This document shows positions 2,121-60,826 of a DNA stretch of 64,000 nt, in pieces (the first letter of the stretch is position 1; every line of letters begins with the position of its first letter). Both the position numbers and the translations under genes were made by a program. Below the pieces are notes generated by a model. That model searched no databases. It was given only the letters and a program-made list of their open reading frames with translations, and had not been told where the DNA came from. This DNA comes from a virus. The DNA lies in the IMG/VR virus record IMGVR_UViG_3300023104_000005, positions 1 through 64,000 of that record, one strand, 5' to 3'.

Positions 2121-2124
2121 GACG

Positions 2125-2409: not shown

Positions 2410-2771
2410 AATATCTCTCTGATTGTTTTTGTGATTGTCTCTAACACCTCTATTGGAAGTTCCTCAATGTTTAAGTCTACACTCTCCATTCCCATTACTA
2501 CGTCTGAGAAGTGAACCTTGTTGCTTATGCCGGAGATATACATTGGAATGAACTGATCGGGAAGTTCAAAGCTAATTAGCTTAAGTCTGCTGATTAATTC
2601 ATCCAATTGGGCTACGTTCAGCCTCTCTAAGGAACTTTTAACTGTTAGGTGGACTATTGGGTAGGAAATGATCTCTAAGGCTTTAGATGGCTCTGTTCCT
2701 TGTGACACTAAATCAGCATGTGGTTTGAGTGTGTTGTTTACAAAGTCGAGTAGTTGGTTGTGTTTTGTCAT
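2406..2771 (-). CDS. hypothetical helical protein, 121 aa
   Basis: A Leu-rich, mostly helical soluble protein without cysteines. Its end overlaps the next gene start (ATGA). No family is recognised. Confidence 0.62.
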   Translation of the reverse strand: MTKHNQLLDFVNNTLKPHADLVSQGTEPSKALEIISYPIVHLTVKSSLERLNVAQLDELISRLKLISFELPDQFIPMYISGISNKVHFSDVVMGMESVDLNIEELPIEVLETITKTIREIL

Positions 2772-2777
2772 GATTGG

Positions 2778-3197
2778 TTATTTAAATTCTGTTCCTGTTT
2801 TACGTTCTGATTCTTTGTCTGCTAAGTAAACTTTAAGTAGTCCTTTTGCATTGGCGCTGTCTAAGAAGTCACAATATGCTATTGATCTTGGATAAGGTTC
2901 TATTCCGTATTTGCCATGATAAAGAAGTTGTCCATTCTCGTAGGCACCGGAGTCTACTATCATTACCGCGTAATACTTACCGTCTGATACAATCTTATAG
3001 CCTTTAGGGACTTTATAATCCTTGTCTGAGGGGTAGAATACCTTGTTCCAGTATCTAAAGTGAAAGTATTCTTGATTTAGACCTAGAAACATTGCGAACA
3101 AGAATACCAGTACCGCAAAAACTAATATCACTATTAGTGCTGTACCTCCTGAATCTGTTTGTTCTTCTTCCGGTTTGTCTTTTAATTCAATTTCCAT
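2778..3197 (-). CDS. single-pass membrane protein, 139 aa
   Basis: The Met at 3197 (MEIELKDKP) is preferred over one nine codons upstream because a 36-codon gene ends at 3203, just before it. The protein has a short acidic cytoplasmic tail, one strongly hydrophobic helix (ALIVILVFAVLVFLFAMFLGL, about residues 19-39) and a 95-residue soluble domain rich in Tyr and Gly. No family is recognised. It follows a membrane microprotein, so the pair may act together at the inner membrane. Confidence 0.65.
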   Translation of the reverse strand: MEIELKDKPEEEQTDSGGTALIVILVFAVLVFLFAMFLGLNQEYFHFRYWNKVFYPSDKDYKVPKGYKIVSDGKYYAVMIVDSGAYENGQLLYHGKYGIEPYPRSIAYCDFLDSANAKGLLKVYLADKESERKTGTEFK

Positions 3198-3202
3198 GTT
3201 TT

Positions 3203-3313
3203 CTATTGTTTTAAATGCCACCACTTCTGATACTCTCCTAACAGTATGATTAGAATGATAATTAGGATAGTAAAGAAGATGTTGGTTGGGGTTAAGTATT
3301 TGTTAGTTTTCAT
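3203..3313 (-). CDS. membrane microprotein, 36 aa
   Basis: Read on the minus strand, an ATG at 3313 opens 36 codons: MKTNKYLTPTN, then one hydrophobic helix (IFFTILIIILIILLGEY), then QKWWHLKQ and TAG. It overlaps the end of the YopX copy-3 gene and stops six bases before the next ATG. This fits the operon's packing and makes the ORF likely to be real. Function unknown. Confidence 0.55.
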   Translation of the reverse strand: MKTNKYLTPTNIFFTILIIILIILLGEYQKWWHLKQ

Positions 3314-3650
3314 GGATATTACCGCTGATTATACACCAGTCTGATTCGTTTTCAAAAGGCATCAGTTCTAAGTTTGGGTAATCCCAACAGAATGAAGCTG
3401 AATCTTGGTTCCAGACCACGCTTCCCCCGTCTTGATTTGTATCACCTTCGTATATCTCAGAATTGTTTATGTCATTGCATCCGGTATACTGTTCTTCACA
3501 TTTCCTAGAAGTTCCACTACGGTGGGTTGGCGAACTAAAACTATCATCTGAATGGTTGCCGAATCTGTCTATTTGCCCCCAGTAAGTAAATCCACTGAAC
3601 TTGCCTGTATGGTCGTAATGTGCTGATCTATATTTTAATGTTCTTTTCAT
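3303..3650 (-). CDS. YopX-family-like protein (copy 3, divergent)
   Basis: A 115-residue protein. The N-terminal strand KYRSAHYDHTGKFSGF is followed by YTGCNDINNSEIYEGDT (about residues 55-71), equivalent to the YopX core G-x-x-D-x-x-x-x-x-I-Y-E-G-D. The end reads IISGNIHEN, matching the family's closing motif. It is more divergent and Cys-containing compared with the two copies at 554-1317. Confidence 0.7.
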   Translation of the reverse strand: MKRTLKYRSAHYDHTGKFSGFTYWGQIDRFGNHSDDSFSSPTHRSGTSRKCEEQYTGCNDINNSEIYEGDTNQDGGSVVWNQDSASFCWDYPNLELMPFENESDWCIISGNIHEN

Positions 3651-3653
3651 TGT

Positions 3654-3881
3654 TTAGTCCTCCTTGTTTAAAGCGTTTATAAGGGCATCTGCTAGTTTAA
3701 CTGACTTACTTGCTGTGGTTTCAATTAAAGAGTCATCTAGCACGCTAATATTCCAATCTAGAGAAGCTAAAAGACCGATCATTGCTTGTCCGGCAAAGTG
3801 TTGCTTAAATGTAAGTGCATGTATTTGCTGTGAGGTTCGCTCCCCACTGCTGTTCATGATTTGATCTGGATTTATTTTCAT
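3654..3881 (-). CDS. small phage protein with an FAGQAM-type motif, 75 aa
   Basis: Contains LTFKQHFAGQAMIGLLASL (residues 23-41) and ends in a KLADALINAL helix. The (Y/F)FAGQA(L/M)xGLLA ... ADALI pattern recurs in small phage and prophage proteins of unknown function. Overlaps the upstream gene by four bases. Confidence 0.65.
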   Translation of the reverse strand: MKINPDQIMNSSGERTSQQIHALTFKQHFAGQAMIGLLASLDWNISVLDDSLIETTASKSVKLADALINALNKED

Positions 3882-5389: not shown

Positions 5390-6250
5390 TTATGCTGTTT
5401 TTAAAGGGTTATTTATAGCAATATTGCTGTCCATTTTATGACTTACTACATTATTCATCTTCTCTGGAATCCGGCTCCCAACAACCTTGATAATATTAGG
5501 GAGGCATTTAAATACGAGTCCGGTTTTTTTTGAATGTTGATATTTGTTACTGATGTATCTTTCTCTAAACTCACGATAAGAAATAGGGAATGGTTCAACT
5601 ATAATCGAGTTGCGTTCAGACCTAATCAGCTTTAGTTTATTCAATTGCTTCTGAAAACGTAGTCCGGTTGCTTGTGATCTGTAGAACATGGCACCTATAT
5701 TCCTATTTGATAAGATAAAATCTTTTGACAGCGAAGTTTCTAACGATGAATTGTTAAGGGTAAGGGTCTTTTCAAGTTTAAGAAGTTTCTTAGTCTTCTT
5801 AGGATCGGATTTCTTACTCTGATGAATTTTAATGATGTCCTTCTTTAGTTTGTAGATTTTCTCTTGCTTGTGTAGATTACTGTTTAGTATTGTGAATTTA
5901 ATGTAAGCTTGTTGTTCTTTTCTTTTTGGCGATACCTGAACTGGAAATTCAGCTGACGGATACCGCTTTAATAGTTTATCTCTACCTGTCAGGCATAAGT
6001 TACCGTTGTTAACGCTTATTAAGCCATTATCAGCGAGTTTCTTTATGTGCTTGGATAATGTAGTAGGTGAGCAATTTAATTGTCTTGAAAGGCTTCTAAT
6101 AGAATAGTTGTAAAAGATGCCTTTGGTGTGTATTGAACGAAGTTGAACAAACGTAGCAAGAGCATTGAGCCAATTGAATTTGTTGGCTGTGTGGATCAAC
6201 TTTAGTGTTAACCATGCTTTGTTCTCGTAATGCTTGTGTTTGTATCTCAA
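5390..6250 (-). CDS. winged-helix DNA-binding protein, 286 aa
   Basis: Residues about 45-95 hold a winged helix-turn-helix: YSIRSLSRQLNCSPTTLSKHIKKL followed by ADNGLISVNNGNLCLTG as the wing. The rest is basic and rich in Lys, with a central coiled-coil-like stretch. The arrangement resembles replication or transcription regulators of Bacteroidetes plasmids and phages. It is the first gene after a 200-base gap containing a terminator and nested inverted repeats, so it probably begins its own transcription unit and may bind those repeats. Confidence 0.72.
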   Translation of the reverse strand: MRYKHKHYENKAWLTLKLIHTANKFNWLNALATFVQLRSIHTKGIFYNYSIRSLSRQLNCSPTTLSKHIKKLADNGLISVNNGNLCLTGRDKLLKRYPSAEFPVQVSPKRKEQQAYIKFTILNSNLHKQEKIYKLKKDIIKIHQSKKSDPKKTKKLLKLEKTLTLNNSSLETSLSKDFILSNRNIGAMFYRSQATGLRFQKQLNKLKLIRSERNSIIVEPFPISYREFRERYISNKYQHSKKTGLVFKCLPNIIKVVGSRIPEKMNNVVSHKMDSNIAINNPLKTA

Positions 6251-6294
6251 CCTCAGCGTATTTAAAGTAACTGCTGATTTTGTCTTTGGAGATT

Positions 6295-6412
6295 GCGAAT
6301 TACCAAATCGGTTCAGCTAATAAACCGATGCAAGTATAAGAAATTATTTGTGAATAAAAAAAAGCCACTCAATCGGGAGACTGAAATGGCTTGGTATTTT
6401 TGGGTAATTCGC
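6295..6412. repeat. nested inverted repeats upstream of the winged-helix gene
   Basis: Outer arms GCGAATTACC (6295-6304) and GGTAATTCGC (6403-6412) are perfect 10-base inverted copies. Inside them, ATCGGTT (6307-6313) and AACCGAT (6323-6329) form a second perfect 7-base inverted pair, next to a weak minus-strand -7-like element (TATACTTG, 6331-6338). The setting between a terminator and the winged-helix gene suggests operators; this is inference. Confidence 0.55.
6356..6392 (-). terminator. Rho-independent terminator (minus strand)
   Basis: Read on the minus strand, AAGCCA (6387-6392) pairs with TGGCTT (6362-6367) across a 19-base loop and runs straight into eight Ts. It would end transcription coming from 6448-6693 and separates that unit from the winged-helix gene. 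Confidence 0.6.
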
Positions 6413-6447
6413 ACCACAAAAGTAGTAATAATTATGCCAAAGTGAAA

Positions 6448-6693
6448 TTAATCTTTCAAAACTACTAGTCTCCCCTTCTTCACTAGTTGAAGTTTATCTC
6501 CTGAGTACCAAAATAGTTTCCCATTTCTTTTAACCCAATATTTAGGGAATGATGTTTCTTGACAGGCACCTATTGGTTCAATCTCCACTAGTTTACCTGT
6601 TACGTGCATCAATTTGTCTGTGATCCTTCCGTCTTCGTCCATTTTGTTAGAAACGAATCGTACTGTATCGCCTAATTCTATTGTTAGTTCCAT
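6448..6693 (-). CDS. SH3/KOW-like small protein, 81 aa
   Basis: A beta-rich protein opening MELTIELGDTVRFVSNKMD and closing FWYSGDKLQLVKKG. The GDTVRF start and short strands suggest a small barrel like the protein at 4083-4424. It is the last gene before a terminator. Confidence 0.65.
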   Translation of the reverse strand: MELTIELGDTVRFVSNKMDEDGRITDKLMHVTGKLVEIEPIGACQETSFPKYWVKRNGKLFWYSGDKLQLVKKGRLVVLKD

Positions 6694-6711
6694 TTGTTTA
6701 AGGTGTTAGTT

Positions 6712-6990
6712 TTAAATAGAGAATTTCCTTAATTCTTCATAGTTATTGATAAACCCGTTTTCTTTGATGTATGATAGAATAAAAGGCAAACTATATACGT
6801 TAGCGTCATTGTCGGCTAAAACAATCCCATCGGATGGTTGGTATTCTATATGAAAGAAATTAGGCTCATTTTCGTTGGGGCTTGAGAATTTAAAATATCG
6901 AAGTAGTTCTTCTAAAACCATATCATATCTTATTTCTAGTGTTGTCCTAGCGTGATCAGCAAGTTCTATGCATTTTATTAATCGTTTCAT
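6712..6990 (-). CDS. hypothetical protein, 92 aa
   Basis: Helical N-terminus (MKRLIKCIELADHARTTLEI) and a central beta part (FFHIEYQPSDGIVLAD). No family is recognised. It is followed within the operon by the SH3-like gene. Confidence 0.6.
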   Translation of the reverse strand: MKRLIKCIELADHARTTLEIRYDMVLEELLRYFKFSSPNENEPNFFHIEYQPSDGIVLADNDANVYSLPFILSYIKENGFINNYEELRKFSI

Positions 6991-6993
6991 AAT

Positions 6994-7107
6994 TTAAAGA
7001 GTTACTTGAATGAATTTAATTACTGCTGATGCTATAGCTATTACCTCACATGCTACAAGAATCTTGAGCAGTGGATGATCTTTTGGGATGTTGGTTTGTG
7101 TTGTCAT
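6994..7107 (-). CDS. membrane microprotein, 37 aa
   Basis: On the minus strand an ATG at 7107 opens 37 codons: MTTQTNIPKDHPLLK, then the hydrophobic segment ILVACEVIAIASAVIKFI, then QVTL. It overlaps the upstream 55-codon gene by four bases (ATGA) and ends three bases before the next start, so it fits operon packing. Confidence 0.5.
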   Translation of the reverse strand: MTTQTNIPKDHPLLKILVACEVIAIASAVIKFIQVTL

Positions 7108-7271
7108 TTCTTTTCTCTTTTAATTTCAATGATAAGGTCGGACAATACACTTGATTGTGCTTGATATATCAGTGCCTGTCCATAGTTGCCAAATTTAGCA
7201 GATGTTCCCTGCTTGTCATTTAGTATCCCAATTTTAATATCTAGGTGTGTGAGTATTTCTTCTGTTGTCAT
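7104..7271 (-). CDS. hypothetical small protein, 55 aa
   Basis: Translates as MTTEEILTHLDIKIGILNDK followed by a helical, Gln-rich middle and a basic end (IEIKREKK). Both ends overlap neighbours by four bases, strong circumstantial support for a real gene. Function unknown. Confidence 0.55.
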   Translation of the reverse strand: MTTEEILTHLDIKIGILNDKQGTSAKFGNYGQALIYQAQSSVLSDLIIEIKREKK

Positions 7272-7432
7272 GGCTTTTGTTTAAATGATGATCTAATAAG
7301 TTCTAATGCAAACCATAAGGTTACTACTGACAAAGGTATTAATACAACGTGGCTCTTAGCTTCTGCGTTGGGAGACCATTTCATGAAAATAACGGTTGCT
7401 ATGATAAACATTGATGCTAGCTGTAGTTTCAT
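7268..7432 (-). CDS. two-helix membrane protein, 54 aa
   Basis: Starts MKLQLASMFIIATVIFMKW (first helix), a short SPNAEAKS turn, a second helix (VVLIPLSVVTLWFALELI) and a basic tail. ATGA overlaps join it to the genes on both sides, including the XRE regulator directly upstream. Confidence 0.55.
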   Translation of the reverse strand: MKLQLASMFIIATVIFMKWSPNAEAKSHVVLIPLSVVTLWFALELIRSSFKQKP

Positions 7433-7785
7433 GGTCTGTAGTTTTTACCTTGTTCCATTTTAAGGAATTGGTTTTGAATATTGTAGATAAATTCTTTAAG
7501 TTCTTTTACTTCGTCCTGTAGCTCAATCACAGCCTCTGTAGGGCTAAGAAAAGCAGGATGGTCAATAAGATCGGTCAACGGCACCTCAAGTACGTCAGCG
7601 ATCAGTAAAACCATCGCCAGATCAAGCTTTCTATTTCCTAATTCTATAGCGCTCATTGTCCGGTAATCAATGTGTAATACCTCAGCAAGTTGCATCTGTG
7701 TGATTTTACCTTCTTTGCGTATGTTCTTGATCTTCTCACCAATAGTCTCTCTGATCTGTTGGTCTGTTTTTATGGGTTGTCTCAT
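7429..7785 (-). CDS. XRE/Cro-CI-type helix-turn-helix regulator, 118 aa
   Basis: A full HTH_3 domain spans residues about 15-72: IGEKIKNIRKEGKITQMQLAEVLHIDYRTMSAIELGNRKL, with the recognition helix at YRTMSAIELG. The domain ends DVLEVPLTDLI. The last 35 residues (ELQDEVKELKEFIYNIQNQFLK) form a likely dimerising coiled coil. It has no peptidase or multimerisation domain like that of lambda CI. It is a plausible regulator of the operator-like repeats at 13-14 kb, but no direct link is visible. Confidence 0.88.
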   Translation of the reverse strand: MRQPIKTDQQIRETIGEKIKNIRKEGKITQMQLAEVLHIDYRTMSAIELGNRKLDLAMVLLIADVLEVPLTDLIDHPAFLSPTEAVIELQDEVKELKEFIYNIQNQFLKMEQGKNYRP

Positions 7786-7796
7786 TTGTTTTGTGT

Positions 7797-8141
7797 TTAT
7801 ATGTGCTTAATGCAAAATGGTTTAGGGTCAACATCTAAATCGGTATTGAGCCACTGTTCTGTTTTTGAATGGCATTTCTGAATCATGCCGTTTCTGAATC
7901 TGTAGATTTCGTGCTTTGCGCTGTCTTTCATTTTCATGCTGTATCCCGCAAGCATTTCTCTTTCTGTGGCATCTTTGTATCCGGGTCTTTCTCCGTATGG
8001 TGTTGACTTCTCCACGCTACGCTTGTAATGTTGATAGCATAGCCCTGCTTTGTATTCTTGTTTCTGGCATTGAACTTTGTTTCTTCTACCTAAGGGGCTA
8101 TAACCTCCGTGATGCGACTGTAATATCATTTTGGTACACAT
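7797..8141 (-). CDS. putative zinc-binding protein, 114 aa
   Basis: Several Cys and His residues are spaced like metal ligands: CQKQEYKAGLCYQHYKR (residues about 25-41), and the C-terminal FCIKH. The C-x8-C-x2-H spacing resembles small zinc-finger modules attached to phage HNH or DNA-binding proteins. No catalytic motif is seen. Confidence 0.6.
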   Translation of the reverse strand: MCTKMILQSHHGGYSPLGRRNKVQCQKQEYKAGLCYQHYKRSVEKSTPYGERPGYKDATEREMLAGYSMKMKDSAKHEIYRFRNGMIQKCHSKTEQWLNTDLDVDPKPFCIKHI

Positions 8142-8152
8142 GGTCGGTTAGA

Positions 8153-8341
8153 TTAAGATATGCTCCACAACAGGCGTTGCAGTTCGTCAGAATGAATACC
8201 TAAGAAGTTAACAGAGATACCAGAGAGAGAAGCAAGTTCTTCAATGGCTTTAGAGTCTTTAACATTGGTAAATAGTATTGCCTGTAGGTCAGGTCTTTTC
8301 TCGAACGCTCTGGTAAGAGATAGTTTTGTGTTTAGTTCCAT
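8153..8341 (-). CDS. hypothetical protein, 62 aa (or 74 aa)
   Basis: The start MELNTKLSLTRAFEKRPDLQ at 8341 is chosen because it lies 19 bases beyond the previous stop and follows an ACAAAT stretch like its neighbours. A Met at 8377 would add 12 residues and overlap the upstream gene. No motif is recognised. Confidence 0.58.
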   Translation of the reverse strand: MELNTKLSLTRAFEKRPDLQAILFTNVKDSKAIEELASLSGISVNFLGIHSDELQRLLWSIS

Positions 8342-8360
8342 TATTTGTGTTTTAGTTTTG

Positions 8361-20573: not shown

Positions 20574-20644
20574 GCGAACATAGTATAACGGTAGTACATT
20601 GGTCTCCAAAACCAATAGTCAAGGTTCGAATCCTTGTGGTCGTG
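20574..20644 (+). tRNA. tRNA-Trp (CCA)
   Basis: The cloverleaf is clear: anticodon stem TTGGT/ACCAA around loop CTCCAAA gives anticodon CCA. T-arm CAAGG-TTCGAAT-CCTTG. Acceptor GCGAACA pairs with TGGTCGT with one A-G mismatch and one G-T pair. The 3' end is followed by CA rather than a full encoded CCA. Confidence 0.88.
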
Positions 20645-20649
20645 CAAAT

Positions 20650-20722
20650 AGTGCAGTATATCAATTGGCAGATTACCACATTTGGGATGTGGAGGTTCCG
20701 GGTTCGAGTCCCGGTTGCGCTA
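20650..20722 (+). tRNA. tRNA-Pro (TGG)
   Basis: Anticodon stem CCACA/TGTGG around TTTGGGA gives anticodon TGG. T-arm CCGGG-TTCGAGT-CCCGG. Acceptor AGTGCAG pairs with TTGCGCT, using G-T pairs at two positions. Confidence 0.88.
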
Positions 20723-20728
20723 CAACAC

Positions 20729-20800
20729 TTTCCTATAGTGCAATGGTTAGCACGTCGCATTTTGGTTGCGAAGATTGGAGTTCGAGTCTCTGTGGGAAAA
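20729..20800 (+). tRNA. tRNA-Gln (TTG)
   Basis: Anticodon stem TCGCA/TGCGA around TTTTGGT gives anticodon TTG. Acceptor TTTCCTA pairs with TGGGAAA. The T-arm is TGGAG-TTCGAGT-CTCTG. The anticodon reads CAA/CAG, not TAG, so this is not a suppressor. Confidence 0.85.
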
Positions 20801-21040
20801 CAAAGAGTATTATGCCCTCTGCTATGACTTTACATGGCGAAAGTGGCAATGATCTACCACCTATCAGTTGAAACTCCACAGATGTTGAGATGGAGATGGT
20901 TATGGTGGATGTATTTGCTAACTGAGCGATTTTAAGGACTTCTGAGAGACTTTTTGTTATGAGGTGATAGTTTGGTTGGCTTTGAGGTTAATATCGCTTA
21001 AATCGATATAAAAATAAATTAAAATATTTCTTGGTTACTA
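20801..21040. other. 240-base gene-free stretch after the tRNAs
   Basis: No gene is seen. A short hairpin CTCCA...TGGAG lies at about 20874-20895. The GC content is higher at the left than at the AT-rich right end, which leads into the next promoter. Confidence 0.4.
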
Positions 21041-26317: not shown

Positions 26318-27109
26318 ATGACCATGTTAGACACACACAGAAAAAATTCTCCACCTAAAAATATACCCCGCGATAAGGAATCACTTGGTTTAACTCATTT
26401 GAATAAGCATCCTTTGACCGGGGTTAATTCTCAAATGGAAAGTAAAAAAGTAAAGATTTATGCGCTCATTGATCCTATTACCAAAAGAACGAGGTATATA
26501 GGCAAGACCGAAGTAACCTTGGAAAGGCGATTAATGCAACACATTGGCGAAAAGAAAAGTAATACTCATAGAGTAGCTTGGATTGCCGGACTAGCTAAGA
26601 AAGGAAAGAAACCTATTATTCAATTGATAGACATTATTGACATTTCAGAATGGATAGAAGCAGAGAAATACTGGATTAGGTTTTATAAAGAGTTGCATGG
26701 AGATATGCTTAACTTAACCGGAGGTGGTGAATGTGGATATGGCAAGAAACCCAGAAAACCACATACTCAAGAATGGAAAGACAAAATGTCTGTAATAATG
26801 AAAGGTAATAAACATTGTCTTGGATATAAACATACTGATGAATATAAGAAAACAAGGAGCGAACTTTTAAAAGTAATGTATGCGGACGGAAGAAGAACAC
26901 CTATCAAGAATTACAAGGGTAAGAATGTTCCCGTTGTTCAATTAACACTAAAAGGGGAGTTGATTACAGAACATGAATCTGTAACCGGAGCGGCATTAAA
27001 TACAGGATTGAAAAGAACTAACATAACTGAAAATTTAAGAGGCGTTACTAAATCAGCAGGAGGTTATATTTTTAAAAGAAAAACAGAATATGAAGTTATT
27101 AAGCGGTAA
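26318..27109 (+). CDS. GIY-YIG homing endonuclease (free-standing), 263 aa
   Basis: The catalytic domain covers about residues 46-135: IYAL (47-50), RYIGKT (59-64), ERRLMQHI (69-76) with the catalytic Arg, an EAEKYWI segment with the Glu, and LNLTGGGECG. A helical NUMOD3-type region (SVIMKGNKHCLGYKHT) and a C-terminal NUMOD1-like segment (VVQLTLKGELITEHESVTGA) provide DNA binding. The first 40 residues are unlike the family and may be a linker or a mis-start (alternative Met at residue 40). It overlaps the next gene by 20 bases, typical of an inserted mobile gene. Confidence 0.88.
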   Translation: MTMLDTHRKNSPPKNIPRDKESLGLTHLNKHPLTGVNSQMESKKVKIYALIDPITKRTRYIGKTEVTLERRLMQHIGEKKSNTHRVAWIAGLAKKGKKPIIQLIDIIDISEWIEAEKYWIRFYKELHGDMLNLTGGGECGYGKKPRKPHTQEWKDKMSVIMKGNKHCLGYKHTDEYKKTRSELLKVMYADGRRTPIKNYKGKNVPVVQLTLKGELITEHESVTGAALNTGLKRTNITENLRGVTKSAGGYIFKRKTEYEVIKR

Positions 27110-27689
27110 AATAGGCGTTATCTTTGACGAGTCACATCTTAAGACGTACAACCTAAACGGCATTGAGTTAGTCAGAGCAACAAGTTGGGTAGCAAGAGAA
27201 GATGATGGAGAGACAGGTACCAAAAAAGAAACCAACGTAAATCACCTAGAGATAAACCCTCAGCTTGCACTATTAGCGATAGAGAATGACAACTTTCCTT
27301 ATAAACTTGGGGATATGTTGTTCTTGCATTACTTAGCGTATGAATGGAGTGACGAGAGAGTGCCAATAGGAGGTCAAGACGCTTACTTGGTAGACGGAGC
27401 AATGGTTTTGTTCACTATTGAGAATGGATCGCCTGTAATGCCTGAAAAGGCTTACATTGGAGAGTTGGTAGTGGAAGAAGCACCAAAGACCTCTAGCGGT
27501 ATCTTTTTAACCTCAGCAGAAGATGTTCAATCGGAGTTTAAGATCAAAATAACCCATACCCCAATAAGTTCTATCTGTTCAGTAGGAGAAGTTGTCTGTT
27601 CGGTGGACAAGCATAACTATCCGTTGGTGTTTGAGGGTAAGAAATATATATTCATCAAAGAAGATGACATTTTAGGAGTAATGAACTAG
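27090..27689 (+). CDS. possible GroES-fold protein, 199 aa
   Basis: The first half (LGDMLFLHYLAYEWSDERVP near 71-90) is not assignable. The second half reads like a Cpn10 barrel: AYIGELVVEEAP, GIFLTSAED in mobile-loop position, SVGEVVCSVD, and YIFIKEDDILGVMN as the closing strand, parallel to the GroES-like gene at 18648. If correct, this phage has two co-chaperonin-related proteins. The homing endonuclease gene runs into its start. Confidence 0.5.
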   Translation: MKLLSGKIGVIFDESHLKTYNLNGIELVRATSWVAREDDGETGTKKETNVNHLEINPQLALLAIENDNFPYKLGDMLFLHYLAYEWSDERVPIGGQDAYLVDGAMVLFTIENGSPVMPEKAYIGELVVEEAPKTSSGIFLTSAEDVQSEFKIKITHTPISSICSVGEVVCSVDKHNYPLVFEGKKYIFIKEDDILGVMN

Positions 27690-28535: not shown

Positions 28536-28873
28536 AAGAAGTAAAACAAGAGTTTTCAAACATCAAAAAGCTGTTTGAGGCATGTGATGAAATAGCAGGT
28601 GTGATTGCAGATGACGTTATTCTACTAAAGGAACATGGTAACGATGACGAGATTGACAACAGACTACAGATGCTCGGATCAAAGAAGAACAAAATCTACG
28701 AAAGGTACTTACAGTTAGTGAGTAATCTAAAGCATTTTAAAGCCATAGAAGACCTTTACAGCCAAGACAAAGGAAAAACATCATCAAAAGATAATAAAGA
28801 GCCTGACGAAGCTATAAATACGCCTAAGGCCAAAAAGAATATTCAAGACTTTGTAATCAACAAAAATGTCTAG
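28532..28873 (+). CDS. helical protein, possible terminase-associated, 113 aa
   Basis: The start MKEVKQEFSNIKKLFEACDE at 28532 overlaps the previous stop (ATGA); an ATG at 28517 is also open. The protein is helical and acidic, with a Ser/Lys-rich tail. It overlaps the terminase start by eight bases; size and place fit a small terminase subunit. Confidence 0.55.
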   Translation: MKEVKQEFSNIKKLFEACDEIAGVIADDVILLKEHGNDDEIDNRLQMLGSKKNKIYERYLQLVSNLKHFKAIEDLYSQDKGKTSSKDNKEPDEAINTPKAKKNIQDFVINKNV

Positions 28874-31800
28874 ACAACGGGACTTATTATACGACGCTAT
28901 TAGAAATTTTGTTACCGAAAGGGTGATTGGTGAGATAACAGTTTACTTACCTAGTCCACCTGCGATTAATAAAATAGCCAATTACAAAGTTGACATTCCA
29001 AAACAGAAATTCCAGTATACAGAACAACCTAAAAGAGGTGAGGAACCAACAGATGAATTTCTAGAAGCTGAGTTTGAAAAGATCACAAACGGATATTGGT
29101 TCTTTAACAATGGCAATCTTGAATACATTACGGGCTACCATTACTTTTTTCTTAACTATTGGAAAGATCGTGGAAAGACTTTGGTTTTCATAGATGCACA
29201 GAGAGATGCGTTCCTTTGGTGGAATCAAATTGAGATAAATCACAACCTTGCTTTTGGAAACTTAGTCTCGAATCGCCGTTTCGGTAAGGCGCTTGATGTT
29301 GATACTCCTATTCCGACTCCTAATGGATGGACTACTATGGGAGAATTGAAAGTTGGAGATTTTGTTTTTGATTCAAATGGGAAACCGACTAAAGTGCTAG
29401 AGGTGACACCATACCAATACAATAGAACTTGTTACGATGTTAGATTCTCTGACGGATCAAATGTGATAGCGGATGAAGATCACTTATGGATAGCTCACAA
29501 TAAGAGAAGTAGAAGCAGGATGTTAAGGAATCCTGAGTTGTCCTACACAGAAATAGTTTCTACAAAAACAATCTTAGAAAGTTTAAGGGTTAATAAAAAT
29601 CAGGAAACAAATTGGAGCGTCGTTAATTGTAAACCATTACAGTATCAAAAAAGAGAATTAAAAGTACCGCCATATATACTTGGAACTTGGTTGGGAGATG
29701 GAACTAGCGCTTGTACCGCATTAACATCCGTAGACGAACAGGTTTATAATTCGTGGAAAACATACGCAGAGGAAAATGATATGTTGTTTAACGCTTGTCC
29801 TCAAAATAACAGGTGTACAACATATAGAATATCAGGAAAATTCGGGGCGGGTCAAAATCATACTAACCATTTCTTGCATGGTCTAAGACATTATAATCTG
29901 ATTCAAAATAAACATATCCCAATTGATTACATGCTTTCTGATGAACATGATAGAATGGAATTACTCAAGGGATTAATGGATACTGATGGTTGTGTGTATA
30001 GCGGAGGTAATTGTTTTGAATGGTGTTCTAAATGGGAATCTTTAGCTAGGCAAATGAAAGAATTAGCTGAAAGTTTAGGTTACAAAGTAGTATTCGCATC
30101 CAAGATTAATAAAAAATATGGCACTACATTTTGGTACATTAGATTTGGTAATACATCTGTTGCACCATTTAAGCTTCAACGACACTTAGACAAGATCAAA
30201 ATAAACCAACGATCAGGAGGTATTAGATATGACCACCGTTATATAATTGATGTTGTTCCGGTAGAAACAAGACCAGTTAAATGTATAACTGTGGATAGTC
30301 CTGATAGCAGTTATTTATGTGCTAATCATATTGTAACTCACAATACAGTTTGGGGGACTTGTATAACCTATATCCGCAGTGCAACACGTAAATTTCAGTA
30401 CGCAGGTATACAGTCAAAAACTAATACAGATGGTAAAGGTGTTTTCAATAAATTGATTGGTTCATGGTCTAAATTACCAGAATGGTTAAAGCCTTTGGAT
30501 ACAGGTGAAACACGTCCTGCTAGTGTTCTTGAGTTTTTCGAGGCACGTAAGAGGTCAAGCAAGCTAAAGAAAGTATATGGTGAATCTCTAGACTCCAAGA
30601 TAGATTTTAAACCTTCATCAGTGTTAGCTTACGATGGTGAGGAACTAGATACTTACTTTGGCGATGAAGAGGGCAAGACCCTTGACGCTAACGTTAAAGA
30701 GAGGCATGACGTTGTAACTAAGTGCCTTATGAAAGGCCCGACTATTCGTGGTAAAGGTTTAAAGACCACTACGGTTGAGGAAATGGAGAAGAAAGGTGGG
30801 AAGAATTTCAAAATGATTTGGGATGCCTGTTCCATGAAAAAGGTTAACGAGAAAACAGGCCGGAATCCCGGACTAGGAACCAATCTTTTTATTCCGGCAG
30901 ACTATGGATACTACGGACAGCACCCTGTTACTAATGAATGGTTTGTTGATGAATATGGATATTCTAAACGTGAGTTAGCTAAACAGTACATCTTGGATTC
31001 TTGGGAAGGATTGGAAGGAGACGATTTATCATCTGCTCAACGTAAAGACCCGCTTAACTTAAAGCATGTATGGCAACTTAAAAACTTTGACAGTACTTTC
31101 GATAATGAGTTGTTAGAGCATCAAAAGGATTATTTAGAGCGCACTAATGATAATGAAGAAGATAATGCTCCTAAGAACCTAATACGTGTTGTAACCTTTT
31201 ACAAGGACGAAGACGGTATGGTTAAATGGAAAGATGATCCTAAAGGCTTCTTTAAAATGGTATGGGACTTTCCTAACCCTAAACAAAGCAACAAAATAAA
31301 ACCACACGAGTCAGGGTTAATGCAACCGGGAAACACAGAGTCTTACGCTATTGGTGTCGATCCATTTGCCGCTACAATCACAACAGGTACTCAAAAATCA
31401 ATGGGGGTGGCGTACGTTTACAAGAAAGCAGATATTTCTGACCCTGAGAATAGTGGTTTTTGTGTTGTTAGGTATGCACAGAGGACTAGATACAAGAGAC
31501 AGTTCCATGCTAACGTAATGCTATTATGCCAGTATTTTGGTTGTAAAGCCAATTATGAGTCCAATGTTGATGATTACTACGAGGAATTTATCGCTCAGGG
31601 ATTCAAACACTTTGTAATGTGGAGACCTAAATGCACTATAGACCCTCAGAGAAAGAAATTCAAGGTTAAGTATGGTACACCGTCAAACGATGCTTTCGCG
31701 CTTCAAAAGCAAACTTTAATAGCCGATGAATATATCAAAACAAGGTATCACAAGATTTACTTTATAGAATTGGTGTTACAGCTAATAGAATTTGACCCTG

Positions 31801-31934
31801 ATGACCGTACTAAATCCGATGATGCAATTGCGTTTATGATGGCAATAATTGGGGGTCAGGAATCTACTGGCAAAACCGATGATGTTAAACCTCTAAAAAT
31901 GATGGAACTTCGGAAAAGTAAAAAATATTATTAA
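28866..31934 (+). CDS. terL: terminase large subunit containing an intein
   Basis: 1022 codons, of which 352 are an intein; the spliced protein would be 670 residues. The ATPase Walker A motif is assembled by splicing: SNRRFGK (135-141) joined to TVWGTC. A Walker B-like YFGDEEG comes later. The nuclease domain shows YAIGVDPFAA and a closing KSDDAIAFMMAIIG with the expected acidic residues. It packages DNA into the prohead by ATP hydrolysis and cuts the concatemer. It is followed by a promoter and the portal gene. Confidence 0.9.
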   Translation: MSRQRDLLYDAIRNFVTERVIGEITVYLPSPPAINKIANYKVDIPKQKFQYTEQPKRGEEPTDEFLEAEFEKITNGYWFFNNGNLEYITGYHYFFLNYWKDRGKTLVFIDAQRDAFLWWNQIEINHNLAFGNLVSNRRFGKALDVDTPIPTPNGWTTMGELKVGDFVFDSNGKPTKVLEVTPYQYNRTCYDVRFSDGSNVIADEDHLWIAHNKRSRSRMLRNPELSYTEIVSTKTILESLRVNKNQETNWSVVNCKPLQYQKRELKVPPYILGTWLGDGTSACTALTSVDEQVYNSWKTYAEENDMLFNACPQNNRCTTYRISGKFGAGQNHTNHFLHGLRHYNLIQNKHIPIDYMLSDEHDRMELLKGLMDTDGCVYSGGNCFEWCSKWESLARQMKELAESLGYKVVFASKINKKYGTTFWYIRFGNTSVAPFKLQRHLDKIKINQRSGGIRYDHRYIIDVVPVETRPVKCITVDSPDSSYLCANHIVTHNTVWGTCITYIRSATRKFQYAGIQSKTNTDGKGVFNKLIGSWSKLPEWLKPLDTGETRPASVLEFFEARKRSSKLKKVYGESLDSKIDFKPSSVLAYDGEELDTYFGDEEGKTLDANVKERHDVVTKCLMKGPTIRGKGLKTTTVEEMEKKGGKNFKMIWDACSMKKVNEKTGRNPGLGTNLFIPADYGYYGQHPVTNEWFVDEYGYSKRELAKQYILDSWEGLEGDDLSSAQRKDPLNLKHVWQLKNFDSTFDNELLEHQKDYLERTNDNEEDNAPKNLIRVVTFYKDEDGMVKWKDDPKGFFKMVWDFPNPKQSNKIKPHESGLMQPGNTESYAIGVDPFAATITTGTQKSMGVAYVYKKADISDPENSGFCVVRYAQRTRYKRQFHANVMLLCQYFGCKANYESNVDDYYEEFIAQGFKHFVMWRPKCTIDPQRKKFKVKYGTPSNDAFALQKQTLIADEYIKTRYHKIYFIELVLQLIEFDPDDRTKSDDAIAFMMAIIGGQESTGKTDDVKPLKMMELRKSKKYY
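29289..30344 (+). mobile_element. intein with LAGLIDADG homing endonuclease, inserted in terL Walker A
   Basis: Residues 142-493 of the precursor. Block A starts ALDVDTPIPTPNGWTTMGEL with Ala at position 1, not the usual Cys or Ser. The block B region DEDHLWIAH is present. The two endonuclease helices are GTWLGDG and GLMDTDG. The end is SSYLCANHIVTHN, then Thr as the +1 residue. The upstream extein ends GK and the downstream one begins T, so the insertion splits the GK|T of the P-loop. Unspliced terminase cannot bind ATP. Confidence 0.9.
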
Positions 31935-54987: not shown

Positions 54988-55242
54988 ATGATATACACCA
55001 ATTACTTACCGTTTAGTTCGTCCACTAACTACTCAAACGTGCTGATCACAACAAACCAGATGTTTTCAGACCTATTGGAATCTGTAGGTTGCTGTGCAGA
55101 TAAACAATCTGATGCCATACTCATCCAATCAGACCTTTTCTTGACGGGTGCGGAGGTTGATTTTATTAGTGGTGATACGGCTCGCTATCAGGATAACATA
55201 AAAGCGGCATATCTTATACTTTATAATTACGTATCACAATGA
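54988..55242 (+). CDS. hypothetical tail-region protein, 84 aa
   Basis: Start MIYTNYLPFSSSTNYSNVLI. A small acidic protein with a CC pair (VGCCADKQSD). Overlaps the next gene by four bases. First gene of the fibre unit. Confidence 0.62.
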   Translation: MIYTNYLPFSSSTNYSNVLITTNQMFSDLLESVGCCADKQSDAILIQSDLFLTGAEVDFISGDTARYQDNIKAAYLILYNYVSQ

Positions 55243-55826
55243 GTAGCGTAGCAGATGTACAGGCGGCTCTATTACGTGCGTCTGGAATGTATTCTGACCT
55301 CACAGCAGAGTATCTAAGCGACTTAAAGAAAGGATGTGGTGATTGTCTACCTAAGAACTATAAGTGTCTTAAAAGACTCCGTAGAGCCTTAGAATTTGAA
55401 GTAACAAAGGGAATTATAACCCCAACAGCAGAAAGCCTCTATACACAGCTTCTTTTGGTCTTAGGAACCTATCAGGCAAGCGCTCCACCTGTGACTAGTT
55501 ATAACCTTCCATTTGGGTATACTACTATCGCTCCTACTGTGAGTAACATCCTAGATTTTGTATTGCAGTTCACTAAACAGGTGGCTATTGGTTCTACAGA
55601 GGTTAACCTAAACTTCACCACAGGTTCTTATGGAAGGTATCTGATTGCAAGAGTTCCATCAACTGAGCCTATTTGGACTTCATGGTTTAATGATATATTC
55701 TCTAACAGTGGTGATATTCCAGATGAAACATGGACTTCGACGGTTAACGGAGCGTATAGGTATTACTTTACTAGGGTTCCTGTTACTTTAGATATGTCTA
55801 ATCCATCAATTAAATTCAACGCATAA
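55239..55826 (+). CDS. tail-region structural protein, 195 aa
   Basis: A helical N-terminal half with three Cys (KKGCGDCLPKNYKCLKRLRR) and a beta-rich C-terminal half. It overlaps neighbours at both ends. Likely an adaptor between tail and fibre; inferred from place only. Confidence 0.6.
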   Translation: MSSVADVQAALLRASGMYSDLTAEYLSDLKKGCGDCLPKNYKCLKRLRRALEFEVTKGIITPTAESLYTQLLLVLGTYQASAPPVTSYNLPFGYTTIAPTVSNILDFVLQFTKQVAIGSTEVNLNFTTGSYGRYLIARVPSTEPIWTSWFNDIFSNSGDIPDETWTSTVNGAYRYYFTRVPVTLDMSNPSIKFNA

Positions 55827-56536
55827 TGGTTAAAATCTATAAACCAACAGAAACTACGAATGTAGGAAAGCCTTGGGGGTTCTCAGGAGTCCCTAATGAT
55901 GGCAGGAGCATGCCGATAGACACTGATGGGAATTATTACGTCAGAAGGGCTTATAGGAGTATTGCTGAGGCTGTGCAAGTTCTACCTGTATTAAACGAAG
56001 GTGGAACCATTACTAGAAACAGGGAGGGAGGTTATCCGATCATCATTAACTCTACAGGAACTTACAATGCTTCTACAGGAACAATCACCGGAGGGAAGTA
56101 TGAGATCTATAGGTGGACTAAGGGTCTTGAGAGTACTGATACTGATATAGAGCCTTGGACAGACCTTTCAGACTATGTTACCAGTGAACAGTTGACTGAG
56201 GCAATAGACTCACTGTCAGCCTCTATAGTGGACTTATTAGGAGCAGATGGGACTTATACTACAACAGACACCGGACAGACAAGAATAACTATTCCTCATA
56301 CATTAAGTGCTAAACCAAGGAGGTATGATATCAACCCTAATAATCAGAATGCAGGAAATCTATCTATCTCTTGGAAAGATGCTGATGACACTAATCTGTA
56401 TGCTTATTTAGGATTTAGTCAGAATGATTCAGCAAGTCTTAGGTACGTATGGTGGGCATCACAACCGGGAGAGCCACCAACTCCGGGAGAGAATAATTAT
56501 GCAGATGGATATGTTACGTCAGGATATGTAAATTAA
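55826..56536 (+). CDS. tail-fibre-like protein, 236 aa
   Basis: Beta-rich with short repeats of Thr/Gly/Asn (STGTYNASTGTITGGKYEIY), a short coiled-coil (SEQLTEAIDSLSASIVDLLG) that could trimerise, and a Gly/Pro-rich end. This order is typical of fibre proteins. Confidence 0.65.
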   Translation: MVKIYKPTETTNVGKPWGFSGVPNDGRSMPIDTDGNYYVRRAYRSIAEAVQVLPVLNEGGTITRNREGGYPIIINSTGTYNASTGTITGGKYEIYRWTKGLESTDTDIEPWTDLSDYVTSEQLTEAIDSLSASIVDLLGADGTYTTTDTGQTRITIPHTLSAKPRRYDINPNNQNAGNLSISWKDADDTNLYAYLGFSQNDSASLRYVWWASQPGEPPTPGENNYADGYVTSGYVN

Positions 56537-56558: not shown

Positions 56559-58679
56559 ATGGCAATTACTTACAGGAGAGTCAAAGGCTCAAATCTAACA
56601 CCAGACGAGGTTGATGACAACTTCTTGGACTTATCCACAAATAAGGTAGACAAAGTTTCAGGGAAACAGCTTTCCACTGAGGACTACACTAGTACGGAGA
56701 AAACAAAGTTATCAGGCGTAGCTACAGGCGCAACAGCTAATAATACTGATGCTTTCTTGGTCGCAAGAGGGAATCATACCGGGACGGAGAGTGCAGATGT
56801 ATTAACAGATGGTACAACCAATAAAGCATATACAGCTACGGAGAGAACTAAACTTTCTGGTGTTGCATCCGGGGCTACGGCTAATCAGACTGACACATAT
56901 TTACTCGATAGAGCAAATCATACAGGTACACAATCTGCCGATACTATTATAAATGGTACAACGAATAAGGTGCTGACAGCATCAGAGAAAACCAATGTAG
57001 GTAATATTCCTACTTTAACGGCACAAGTTGCGGCCATCTCACCTACAATTCAAACAGAAACCGCCGCCTACATACAAAGAATCATAGCCGCAGGTTCATC
57101 TATTGACGCTTTTACCATTAATGCTATAGATGAATTTGTCGTAAGAGGTAAAGCGGAGGGTTGGTATACTTCTATTCTGAACTTTGCACCTATATTAGGT
57201 GGTAGTTTAGCGGGTGCATTAGTTAAATTAGTTACAGAACCGGGGGGAGCATCTTCAATGGTTGCGACAAATTTAGTTGCCGCAGACTATAACCCGCGTT
57301 ATGGATTTAGGATTTTAACCAACTCCTTAGCTATAGGTAAATATGTTAATACTGGTCTTTCTCCTGATGCACTTGGACTTACCACAACTGGTATAGGTTT
57401 AGGATTATTTGTAACCGAGGATTCCACATCAGCAACGGAATCTTTTATCATGGGTAATAACGGTGTACCCGGATCAACTCCGGCACAGTTTGATAAAATA
57501 CAAGCGACTGTGAATTTAGGAAGATTGACTATTTCAAATGTATCTTATAACGTTGCTGTAGGTGGTAACAGAATGCAGTTTATTAATATTAATGGTGCAA
57601 ATAATTTTCAGGGTTATAAAAATGGAATACGAACAAATGATAGCACTGCAACTGCTTTAACTGCAACTGCTTTAACAGAGCCTATTACGCTTTTTAGAGG
57701 CATCGGAGGTAGTGCTTTTGTCTGGGGAGTAGGTTCTATTGGTTCATTTATTCTTACTCAGCCTTTAACTTCTGTTAGAGCATCCCAATTAACAAAGGCG
57801 ATTTATAACCTTTACATTAGGACTGGACGTGTCCAAACTCAAGGTAGCAATATTGAATGGGATGGAGATTCAATTACCGCGGGTCAAGGAGTTACACTAC
57901 CCTCAGATAGATTTAGTAATATAGTAACAGCTTATATTGGTGGTAATATGTTTAATTTAGGTATACCATCTGGTAGAACAAATCTTGCCGGAGGAAATAA
58001 TGCCGCAGCACCTGTACCTTTAACTCTTACCGCATTAGATGTTGACATACCAATTAACACTAGCATTATAACCATGGGTGTTAACGATGAATTAGCTACA
58101 GGTGATGTGACTTCGCAAGGATATCAAGCGTCTTTGGAAAGTATTATCCAATATAAAAAAGATAAAGGCCAAAGAGTTATATTAAATTCTCCTACATACT
58201 TATCAAGTGAGACTAGTGGGACTTTAGTAACTCCTTTAGCAAGACAAAGAACATACTTACTTGCCGCTGCTAATGCCGCCGCAAATAAAAGTGTTCCTTT
58301 CGTTAATCTGTTAGATGCTTTTTTAGATTTAGATAACCCGCTTTCTTATACGACAGATGGAGTTCATTACAACGCAGCCGGACATAAAATTATAGCGGCT
58401 AGGATTATTGCCGTTTTACAAGGGCAGATATTCAGAACTCCAAAATTAGATTTTCCATCTATCGCCGCAGGGGCCTATTCAGATTTGACAGTTGATTATA
58501 TGTATGGTGCCAGAACAAATATGAATGTAATGGTTGGACAGCCTGTAACACCTGTGGTGGGCTTGACTTATCAAGCTTTTGTGTCAGCGAATGATGTCGT
58601 TACAGTAAGGGCTATCAATAATACGGCATCGGCAATAGATGCGGCTTTACAAGTTTTAAAAATTACAGTAATTTTATAA
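56559..58679 (+). CDS. tail fibre with SGNH/GDSL esterase domain, 706 aa
   Basis: The N-terminus MAITYRRVKGSNLTPDEVDD is a common fibre attachment opening. Two diverged repeats of about 50 residues (EKTKLSGVATGATANNTD / ERTKLSGVASGATANQTD, residues about 47-140) follow. From about residue 430 there is an SGNH hydrolase: GDSITAGQG (block I), ITMGVND (block III) and DGVHYNAAGH (block V) carry the Ser, Asn, Asp and His. It likely deacetylates or de-esterifies capsule or surface glycan during adsorption. Confidence 0.84.
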   Translation: MAITYRRVKGSNLTPDEVDDNFLDLSTNKVDKVSGKQLSTEDYTSTEKTKLSGVATGATANNTDAFLVARGNHTGTESADVLTDGTTNKAYTATERTKLSGVASGATANQTDTYLLDRANHTGTQSADTIINGTTNKVLTASEKTNVGNIPTLTAQVAAISPTIQTETAAYIQRIIAAGSSIDAFTINAIDEFVVRGKAEGWYTSILNFAPILGGSLAGALVKLVTEPGGASSMVATNLVAADYNPRYGFRILTNSLAIGKYVNTGLSPDALGLTTTGIGLGLFVTEDSTSATESFIMGNNGVPGSTPAQFDKIQATVNLGRLTISNVSYNVAVGGNRMQFININGANNFQGYKNGIRTNDSTATALTATALTEPITLFRGIGGSAFVWGVGSIGSFILTQPLTSVRASQLTKAIYNLYIRTGRVQTQGSNIEWDGDSITAGQGVTLPSDRFSNIVTAYIGGNMFNLGIPSGRTNLAGGNNAAAPVPLTLTALDVDIPINTSIITMGVNDELATGDVTSQGYQASLESIIQYKKDKGQRVILNSPTYLSSETSGTLVTPLARQRTYLLAAANAAANKSVPFVNLLDAFLDLDNPLSYTTDGVHYNAAGHKIIAARIIAVLQGQIFRTPKLDFPSIAAGAYSDLTVDYMYGARTNMNVMVGQPVTPVVGLTYQAFVSANDVVTVRAINNTASAIDAALQVLKITVIL

Positions 58680-58681
58680 TC

Positions 58682-58960
58682 ATGAAAATAACAAAACGAC
58701 TTTTAGAAAAAAATGGGTTTGAGTTTAAACAGTACCCTGCCTCGGTAGAGTTTTTAAGAAATGATATTGTTGGTTTTTTTCAACAGGAATCAGAACAAAT
58801 AGATTTAGAAAATTTGAAATTAAAATTCACTGTATTGTCTGTTAATGATTCAAGTGGGTGCGAATACGATCTTCATATGTCTTCTGAAATTGAAGATGCA
58901 GATAGGTTGTCATATCTGATTTTTGGGTTGGTAGGGGCATATTTAGATACGGAATCATGA
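58682..58960 (+). CDS. hypothetical protein, 92 aa
   Basis: A soluble acidic protein (MKITKRLLEKNGFEFKQYPA) whose place between a fibre and an exported fibre-like gene suggests a fibre chaperone or assembly factor. Unproven; no family is recognised. It overlaps the next gene by four bases. Confidence 0.58.
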   Translation: MKITKRLLEKNGFEFKQYPASVEFLRNDIVGFFQQESEQIDLENLKLKFTVLSVNDSSGCEYDLHMSSEIEDADRLSYLIFGLVGAYLDTES

Positions 58961-60249
58961 AAAAAATATTAATAGCATTTTTAGTACTGTTCAGTCAGTA
59001 CGCGTATTCTCAGGTAGGAGTTGCTACAGCAGATACGTCTTTAAGAGCAACGGTAAGCGGAACAGTTCAGATATGGAAGTCAAAAACCTACTACGCTTCG
59101 TTGTTCGCCACTATTTACAATAAAGTCCAATCAGACAATTTGCTTGCTACTAAGATTGGTTTAAGTCAGAAAGGTAATGCTTTAGGCGTAGCTACATTAG
59201 ATGGGTCACAGCAGGTTCCAATCGCTCAGATACCGTCAACTATAGCAAGGACTTCTGATTTGTCAGGCTATGTACCTACAACGAGAACTGTCACTATAAA
59301 CGGTGTCTCTCAGGATTTATCGGTAAACAGGTCTTGGACTATCCCATCAGCAGATTCAACCGTATATAGAACAGTAGCTAATAGCCTGTCTCTTTCTCAA
59401 TTACAAACGAAGTTCAACCTTAAAGCTAATACTGGCGGAGGTAACGCTACAGGCACTTGGCCTATAAGTATTACGGGGAATTCAGCTAATGCTACTACGT
59501 GGAACGGGGCTGTATTCGATGGTCAGTCTGTCCTAACAGGAACGTATACTTATATATTAGGGTATAATGGTACTAAGTGGATGCCCTCAAGTGCCGCGCA
59601 AGTTCAAACATTTTTAGGTTTAGGGTCTAATGCCTATACGAGTACCGCGTACACTCCCACAGCACGAACAATAACAATTAATGGTGTTACTCAGGATTTA
59701 AGTGCAAACCGAACTTTTACTGTAACAAGCTCGACCCCTACATTAGATCAGGTTTTAACAGCGGGAGCATCAAGTAATCAAACTGCGGGTTTTGGGAATG
59801 TTAATGTAATAGGTAACGTTACGACCGCTGGATATAATGCCACAAGCGGAACAGTGGCTAATGCGCCTACTGCAAGTACAGATGTAGTTAATAAATCGTA
59901 TGCTGATGCTTTAGGCAAGGAATTTTTAACGGTTAATAGTTGGGGATCAAATCCTACTCTATATATCACAGGAAGTTCGTTTTATGCAGGGGGTAGTGTT
60001 TCGGTTGTTTATATAGATTGTTCTACGGGGAACAAAACATTATACTTGCCTACAATAGCAGATATGTTTGGCAGAAAAGTTGTTGTATATAAAACAGATG
60101 CTTCTGCTAATACAGCGACTATTACTTCCACTGCTGCATTAAATATCAACGGTTCTCCCACTTATACACTTACAACACAATACCAGTCTGTAGAAATAAG
60201 GGCAGGCAATAATGGTTACACAACTCCAAATCAATATTATGCAAGGTAA
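58957..60249 (+). CDS. exported fibre-like protein with signal peptide, 430 aa
   Basis: Residues 1-18 (MKKILIAFLVLFSQYAYS) form a clear Sec signal peptide with AYS before Gln19. The body has two copies of a fibre motif (RTVTINGVSQDLSVNRSW and RTITINGVTQDLSANRTF, about 160 residues apart), and a later VANAPTASTDVVNKSYAD segment common in Bacteroidetes phage fibres. A virion fibre would normally not need export, so this is unusual. It may be a secreted or surface-displayed fibre relative or an acquired host gene. Confidence 0.75.
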   Translation: MKKILIAFLVLFSQYAYSQVGVATADTSLRATVSGTVQIWKSKTYYASLFATIYNKVQSDNLLATKIGLSQKGNALGVATLDGSQQVPIAQIPSTIARTSDLSGYVPTTRTVTINGVSQDLSVNRSWTIPSADSTVYRTVANSLSLSQLQTKFNLKANTGGGNATGTWPISITGNSANATTWNGAVFDGQSVLTGTYTYILGYNGTKWMPSSAAQVQTFLGLGSNAYTSTAYTPTARTITINGVTQDLSANRTFTVTSSTPTLDQVLTAGASSNQTAGFGNVNVIGNVTTAGYNATSGTVANAPTASTDVVNKSYADALGKEFLTVNSWGSNPTLYITGSSFYAGGSVSVVYIDCSTGNKTLYLPTIADMFGRKVVVYKTDASANTATITSTAALNINGSPTYTLTTQYQSVEIRAGNNGYTTPNQYYAR

Positions 60250-60826
60250 AACCCTAACACTCGCGCTACTATTTGTAGCCCTATTCGCAAAAGCACAAAA
60301 TTACTCAGTGGCAGAGCCTCGCATGAGGGTAAATCGAACGGCTTCATTGGTCTTGTCTACTTCATGGCAAACATTAGCCTTTAATGGTGCGTCAACATTG
60401 AACTTCAATACCTACGGCATGAATCCTGCTACAGGTACACAGATGGTGAACTATAACACCACATCAAATCTTTTCCGAGTCTACGGAGAGTACGATAAAA
60501 ATATACTTGTTCAGCTTTTCTTTAATACGACTACTACAGCGGTAGCTATTGGCACAACCATGCAATACAGATTCGTGATACCTAATGGAGGTGGTGCAGG
60601 GGTAGATACATACTTTCCTTTTCCTGAGAATGGTGGATATGGTGAGATTGCTAGCTTAGGACTTGCTACTGTTGGTATGAATAGTATCTCAGCACCTTTG
60701 GCTGTGTACGCTAATAGTGCTGTAAGAACAAATGGATTTTACATTCAGGTCAGATTATCTAACACAATAACTTTAGGCAATAGTACTATTAACTCAGCGG
60801 CTTGTGTGATCACATCTAGGTATTAA
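60239..60826 (+). CDS. exported beta-rich protein with signal peptide, 195 aa
   Basis: The start is the ATG at 60239, inside the preceding gene's last codons; an earlier Met would spoil the signal. Residues 1-19 (MQGKTLTLALLFVALFAKA) are a Sec signal peptide with AKA before Gln20. The rest is beta-rich with Asn/Thr/Gly. It is the second exported protein in a row and may form a pair with the first. Confidence 0.72.
   Translation: MQGKTLTLALLFVALFAKAQNYSVAEPRMRVNRTASLVLSTSWQTLAFNGASTLNFNTYGMNPATGTQMVNYNTTSNLFRVYGEYDKNILVQLFFNTTTTAVAIGTTMQYRFVIPNGGGAGVDTYFPFPENGGYGEIASLGLATVGMNSISAPLAVYANSAVRTNGFYIQVRLSNTITLGNSTINSAACVITSRY

Follow-up and report, generated by a model that had tools for sequence, protein, structure and literature searches.

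Two adjacent fibre-region proteins with predicted Sec signal peptides in a Crassvirales-like phage, and comparable fibre genes in other phages

Results and Discussion

General features of the late region

The DNA analysed here (the window) covers 64 kb of a virus record 70,305 bp in length, and its gene content is that of a Crassvirales-like podovirus, with a crAss muzzle C-terminal domain (PF25729, E 9.9e-8) and PHROG portal and terminase matches. Based on these crAss-type genes and on the Q-rule signal peptides described below, its host is probably a member of the Bacteroidetes. The late end is organized in the order adaptor-like gene, 55826-56536, fibre gene with an SGNH hydrolase domain, a gene of 92 aa, P1, P2, small genes and an M15 endolysin gene (Table 1). 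P1 is classified as a tail fibre by its motifs (RTVTINGVSQDLS, RTITINGVTQDLS and ITGNSANATTW) and by its place after the SGNH fibre, and P2 by its place alone; the original prediction that one of the two neighbours carries phage fibre motifs is thereby borne out.

Elsewhere in the window, the terminase (28866-31934, 1022 aa) includes a stretch of ~360 residues (about 120-500) that matches insertions in other terminases and helicases and resembles an intein or a homing element; at the terminase of a relative, G001, there is an open frame of 702 codons. An HNH/homing endonuclease gene (26318-27109) is located shortly before the terminase, with an ORF matching the GroES co-chaperonin beside it (27090-27689), and three phage tRNA genes (Trp, Pro and Gln) are found side by side at 20574-20801.

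Table 1. Features of the P1-P2 region and examples of fibre-locus ORFs with a signal peptide followed by Gln (SP-Q) in other viral contigs.
Sequence	Feature	Coordinates	Strand	Remarks
Window	Adaptor-like protein	55239..55826	+	G001 homologue (32% identity over 84 aa) directly precedes the G001 SP-Q fibre
Window	Fibre with SGNH hydrolase domain	56559..58679	+	No signal peptide; Pfam PF13472, E 1.9e-16
Window	Exchange cassette common to siphovirus L003	58954..60826	+	blastn
Window	P1, Sec-exported fibre protein (predicted)	58957..60249	+	Stop included; 430 aa; ORF
Window	P1 signal peptide, MKKILIAFLVLFSQYAYS	58957..59010	+	Predicted cut before Gln19 (YAYS/Q); scan and shuffles; kept in L003
Window	P1 fibre repeat 1, RTVTINGVSQDLSVNR	59284..59331	+	Same motif in 37 viral loci
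Window	P1 fibre motif ITGNSANATTW	59470..59502	+	
Window	P1 fibre repeat 2, RTITINGVTQDLSANR	59665..59712	+	
Window	P1 C-terminal domain	59917..60246	+	Near-identical in siphovirus; part 39% to a prophage fibre without signal peptide
Window	P2, Sec-exported protein (predicted)	60239..60826	+	195 aa; no recognised fold; translational overlap with P1
Window	P2 signal peptide, MQGKTLTLALLFVALFAKA	60239..60295	+	Predicted cut before Gln20 (AKA/Q); scan and shuffles
L123	SP-Q ORF			1242 aa
L034	Two SP-Q ORFs			424 and 1152 aa
L136	Two SP-Q ORFs			674 aa (S74 chaperone match) and 264 aa
L140	Three SP-Q ORFs in a row			
L149	SP-Q fibre	6204..8357		

Signal peptides and gene calls of P1 and P2

Substrates of the Bacteroidetes signal peptidase I follow a Q rule, with Gln as the first mature residue (PMC5837995). 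Among the 100 gene calls in the 64 kb, P1 and P2, which adjoin, are the only two with Q-rule signal peptides, the latter being directly followed by QVG in P1 and by QNY in P2. The scan used was a rule-based heuristic rather than SignalP and looked for a basic n-region, a hydrophobic h-region, small residues at -3/-1 and Q at +1, all of which both proteins display, as expected for Q-rule signal peptidase I substrates. Its cut-off was reached by shuffled N-termini in 20 of 200,000 trials, and in 0.31% and 0.12% of cases with the compositions of P1 and P2 themselves. No lipobox is present in either protein, Gln occupying position +1 and Cys being absent from both signal peptides, and Pfam and NCBIfam searches found no C-terminal sorting domain of the type IX secretion system (T9SS); a PF13585 (CHU_C) match on P1 was ruled out as a T9SS signal, given its E value of 0.01 and its position in the middle of the protein.

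The start of P2 was placed at the ATG at 60239, which results in an 11-nt overlap with the end of P1; a copy of both genes in the siphovirus contig L003 (see below) is identical in start and overlap. An upstream ATG at 60212 was ruled out since the siphovirus copy begins at the overlap, and an isoform of P1 initiated internally and lacking the signal peptide was ruled out since the next ATG is found only at residue 209. With the P2 start thus moved, the original prediction of signal peptides with Gln as first mature residue on two neighbouring proteins holds: the ORFs are real, each N-terminus is a textbook example, and export of P1 and P2 is well supported. Each protein possesses a single cysteine (P1 residue 355, window 60019-60021; P2 residue 189), both also found in the siphovirus copy, and a P1-P2 intermolecular disulfide formed in the periplasm is conceivable.

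For P2 no domain was recognised, and AlphaFold2 runs on two-row alignments gave poor models for both proteins (pLDDT 37 for P1 and 35 for P2). A tblastn search of INPHARED returned nothing for P1 at 1e-5 and, when relaxed to E<=10, only weak hits, chiefly in phages of Streptomyces and Gordonia; P2 had no match in INPHARED.

A two-gene cassette common to a siphovirus

The sole relative of P1/P2 among the viral contigs searched is located on L003, a 37-kb contig that, because of its tape-measure gene, represents an unrelated phage type, a siphovirus. DNA similarity amounts to 86-87% and extends from 3 nt before the P1 ATG to the P2 stop codon, although the central part of P1 has diverged beyond alignment; outside these limits the match is confined to small patches. 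Both signal peptides are kept in the siphovirus copy, and that of P2 has undergone substitutions and a 1-aa gap, yet has retained its hydrophobic core and the AKA/Q site. Between the two copies, 75 synonymous and 12 nonsynonymous codon differences were counted over the last 245 aa of P1, and 56 and 11, respectively, over mature P2. Such a pattern points to purifying selection on the C-terminal part of P1, and P1-P2 has, by sequence comparison, the properties of a mobile two-gene cassette.

Recurrence in other viral contigs

Of the 37 viral loci with the P1 fibre motif, a signal peptide was found on the motif ORF only in the siphovirus copy, in L034 and probably in L040; because these three loci (one of them probable) are the only ones, the fibre motif alone does not bring a signal peptide. 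In a wider set of fibre loci, 23 distinct SP-Q ORFs, those of the window and its siphovirus copy included, were located on the fibre strand versus four on the other strand. When the scan was made blind to Q and limited to ORFs of at least 150 codons, it recovered 37 signal-peptide-like ORFs on the fibre strand, of which 15 had Q, 8 had a lipobox-like site and 14 belonged to neither group, and none of the six on the other strand had Q. P1/P2 are one case of a recurrent class of fibres and spikes in which a signal peptide is followed by Gln (examples in Table 1).

The records holding L123 and L034 have a terminase family in common with the window. In the L123 record, the SP-Q fibre comes directly after homologues of the tail genes and the adaptor-like protein of the window, and the late stretches examined held no further recognisable fibre gene. 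The relatives G001 and G002 match in terminase family, with synteny shown for G001; in both, all fibre genes recognised across the late-region stretches examined encode SP-Q proteins.

The fibre of L149 is situated not at the end of a tail module but inside a structural cluster, between capsid/neck-like and tail sheath/tube-like genes. Two tandem SP-Q fibres of L140 (7665-9056 and 9217-11142) are almost identical over their N-terminal ~80 residues and then differ; the same N-terminal domain opens fibres without signal peptide in the Bacteroides phages SJC03/DAC16 and in a 642-kb uncultured phage. Flavobacterium prophage relatives of the L136 shaft are also without signal peptide. Adjoining the fibre gene of L020 is an SP-Q metalloprotease-like protein (2067-3680) that possesses a T9SS type A domain (TIGR04183, 36 bits, cut-off 23), which shows that a phage using surface export is able to encode a signal of this kind.

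Exported fibres and spikes in cultured Cellulophaga phages

Five consecutive tail-module genes of Cellulophaga phage phi10:1 encode Q-rule signal peptides, and GenBank lists four of their products (gp091-094) as structural on the basis of MS/MS. In phi19:1, gp101-104 all possess a signal peptide (three with Q, one without) and all bear the MS/MS note. The evidence for a virion location thus consists of a GenBank note ('structural protein ... experimental MS/MS proteomics') on other phages, and co-purified envelope proteins are possible; over the part of phi10:1 examined, only structural genes bear MS notes. Related cassettes were found in Pachyviridae (phi19:3, phi46:3, phi13:2), Assiduviridae (Nekkels) and Duneviridae (Ingeline); among the cultured Cellulophaga phages, three families possess fibres and spikes with signal peptide and Gln.

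In phi10:1, phi46:3, phi13:2, Nekkels and Ingeline, lyase heads are joined to N-terminal modules in varying combinations, each of those found retaining a signal peptide and Q: the phi10:1 head (82-777) recurs with 93% identity in phi46:3 gp081 behind a different signal peptide module, and the phi10:1 module 1-131 precedes a different head in Nekkels. The same lyase domain occurs without signal peptide in the phi17:2 spike and, in phi14:2, as part of a longer tail protein that bears the MS/MS note. Fibre modules thus occur in exported and non-exported form, both kinds being annotated as virion proteins. The trait is not universal, because the stretches examined of phi46:1, phiST, phi38:1 and phi14:2 gave no SP-Q fibre.

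Proposed role of P1 and P2

We consider it somewhat more probable than the contrary that P1 and P2 are virion adhesins that pass via Sec into the periplasm and join the particles at lysis. P1 would be the fibre, and P2 would accompany it, perhaps as a head or capping protein. Both would be made as Sec preproteins. Once they are across the inner membrane, signal peptidase I would expose the N-terminal Gln, a residue that would probably cyclise to pyroglutamate, and in mature form both would fold and stay in the periplasm; particles assembled in the cytoplasm would meet them at cell lysis, where docking would place them on the virions. Sec alone delivers proteins to the periplasm. Since P1 and P2 have neither a T9SS domain nor a lipobox, no route is visible by which they would coat the outer surface before lysis, and for this reason the virion-adhesin reading is preferred over secreted decoys; release at lysis onto finished particles would have a visible route. 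It is also preferred because comparable fibres are annotated as structural from MS/MS and because the same modules exist without signal peptide. Counted against it are the SGNH fibre of the window phage, which has no signal peptide and could be its adhesin, the lack of a recognised fold in P2 and the poor models of both proteins. The original prediction had set export against the assembly of virions in the cytoplasm: export stands, and the MS/MS notes of phi10:1 and phi19:1, together with the gene content of G001 and G002, cast doubt on the assumption that a fibre which is exported has no place in the virion.

Alternatively, the pair could act outside the virion as a secreted decoy or receptor blocker, coating the infected cell, debris or vesicles and preventing superinfection and re-adsorption. 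The export signals, on which this part of the original prediction relied, are real, the phage already owns a fibre without signal peptide, and the L034 fibre shows a weak SGNH-type match, below the Pfam cut-off, which makes an exported glycan-modifying enzyme conceivable; but the comparable phi10:1 and phi19:1 proteins are annotated as virion proteins, the SP-Q proteins of G001 and G002 are the only fibre genes recognised there, and P1/P2 offer no visible route to the outer surface before lysis, so that we regard this explanation as unlikely. A dual use, in which the exported adhesins, before lysis or during it, block receptors or cut glycans in the periplasm or outside and also decorate released particles, would unite the evidence for both roles and would fit the signal peptides on tail-module spikes annotated as pectate lyases; as P1/P2 present no outer-membrane export signal, it is judged less likely still.

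An uncleaved hydrophobic N-terminus, kept on the virion protein as an anchor or assembly aid, would reconcile a virion location with cytoplasmic assembly, but is improbable given that the n, h and c regions are complete and that small residues at -3/-1 precede a Gln at +1, the pattern seen in substrates of the host signal peptidase I (PMC5837995), and given the strand bias of Q in the Q-blind scan. The capture of host surface genes, also put forward in the original prediction, would account for the Q-rule signal peptides as a host trait (PMC5837995), and we give it hardly any credence: the fibre-motif query that hit 37 viral loci found no relative in genome contigs, and in 396 genomes of the phylum the C-terminal part of P1 matched a single prophage fibre without signal peptide. 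P2 had no homologue in these 396 genomes, an empty answer that, lacking a positive control, shows little.

Implications

Virions of tailed phages are taken to be assembled entirely in the cytoplasm. It is possible, though we put the chance at somewhat below even, that many Bacteroidetes tailed phages export their receptor-binding fibres and spikes via the host Sec pathway and do not finish their virions until lysis or later, outside the cytoplasm, with an extracellular last assembly step and fibres perhaps shared between phages in one lysate. If so, the adhesion apparatus of some phages would be completed outside the cytoplasm, periplasmic processing of fibres (disulfides, glycosylation, pyroglutamate) and fibre mixing between co-infecting phages would become possible, and free fibres could have a second life as blockers. 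The idea can be tested at once in the cultured Cellulophaga phages.

Comparison with known systems

The Q rule and signal peptides on some phage genes are already known, while the open full texts searched yielded no account of exported virion fibres as a class. Porphyromonas gingivalis prophages carry five Q-rule genes without assigned function, whose products have been suggested to alter the outer membrane of the host (PMC10367356); they are, like P1/P2, phage genes encoding a signal peptide followed by Gln, but are not described as fibres. For the pectin and chondroitin/alginate lyases of Ingeline and Nekkels, the authors likewise report 'signaling peptides', in one sentence, and the part of the article consulted discusses neither the Q rule nor a model of export or assembly (PMC8776804). 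Pantoea WceF, as described in the part of the source consulted, is a glycan-modifying enzyme with a bacteriophage tailspike-like fold, resembling the spike class, but is a bacterial protein, unlike the phage-encoded P1/P2 (PMC7949094). Superinfection-exclusion lipoproteins of the T5 Llp type have a lipobox Cys at the cleavage site where P1/P2 have Gln, and T9SS-secreted surface proteins have the C-terminal sorting domain that P1/P2 lack. The cassettes of phi10:1, phi19:1, phi19:3, phi46:3, phi13:2, Nekkels and Ingeline (KC821618 and others) differ from P1/P2 in that no sequence similarity was detected and that pectate lyase annotations occur among their products; they resemble P1/P2 as runs of adjacent tail-module genes with Q-rule signal peptides and in being exchanged between unrelated phages, here as N- and C-terminal modules, and in phi10:1 and phi19:1 their products are annotated as virion proteins from MS/MS.
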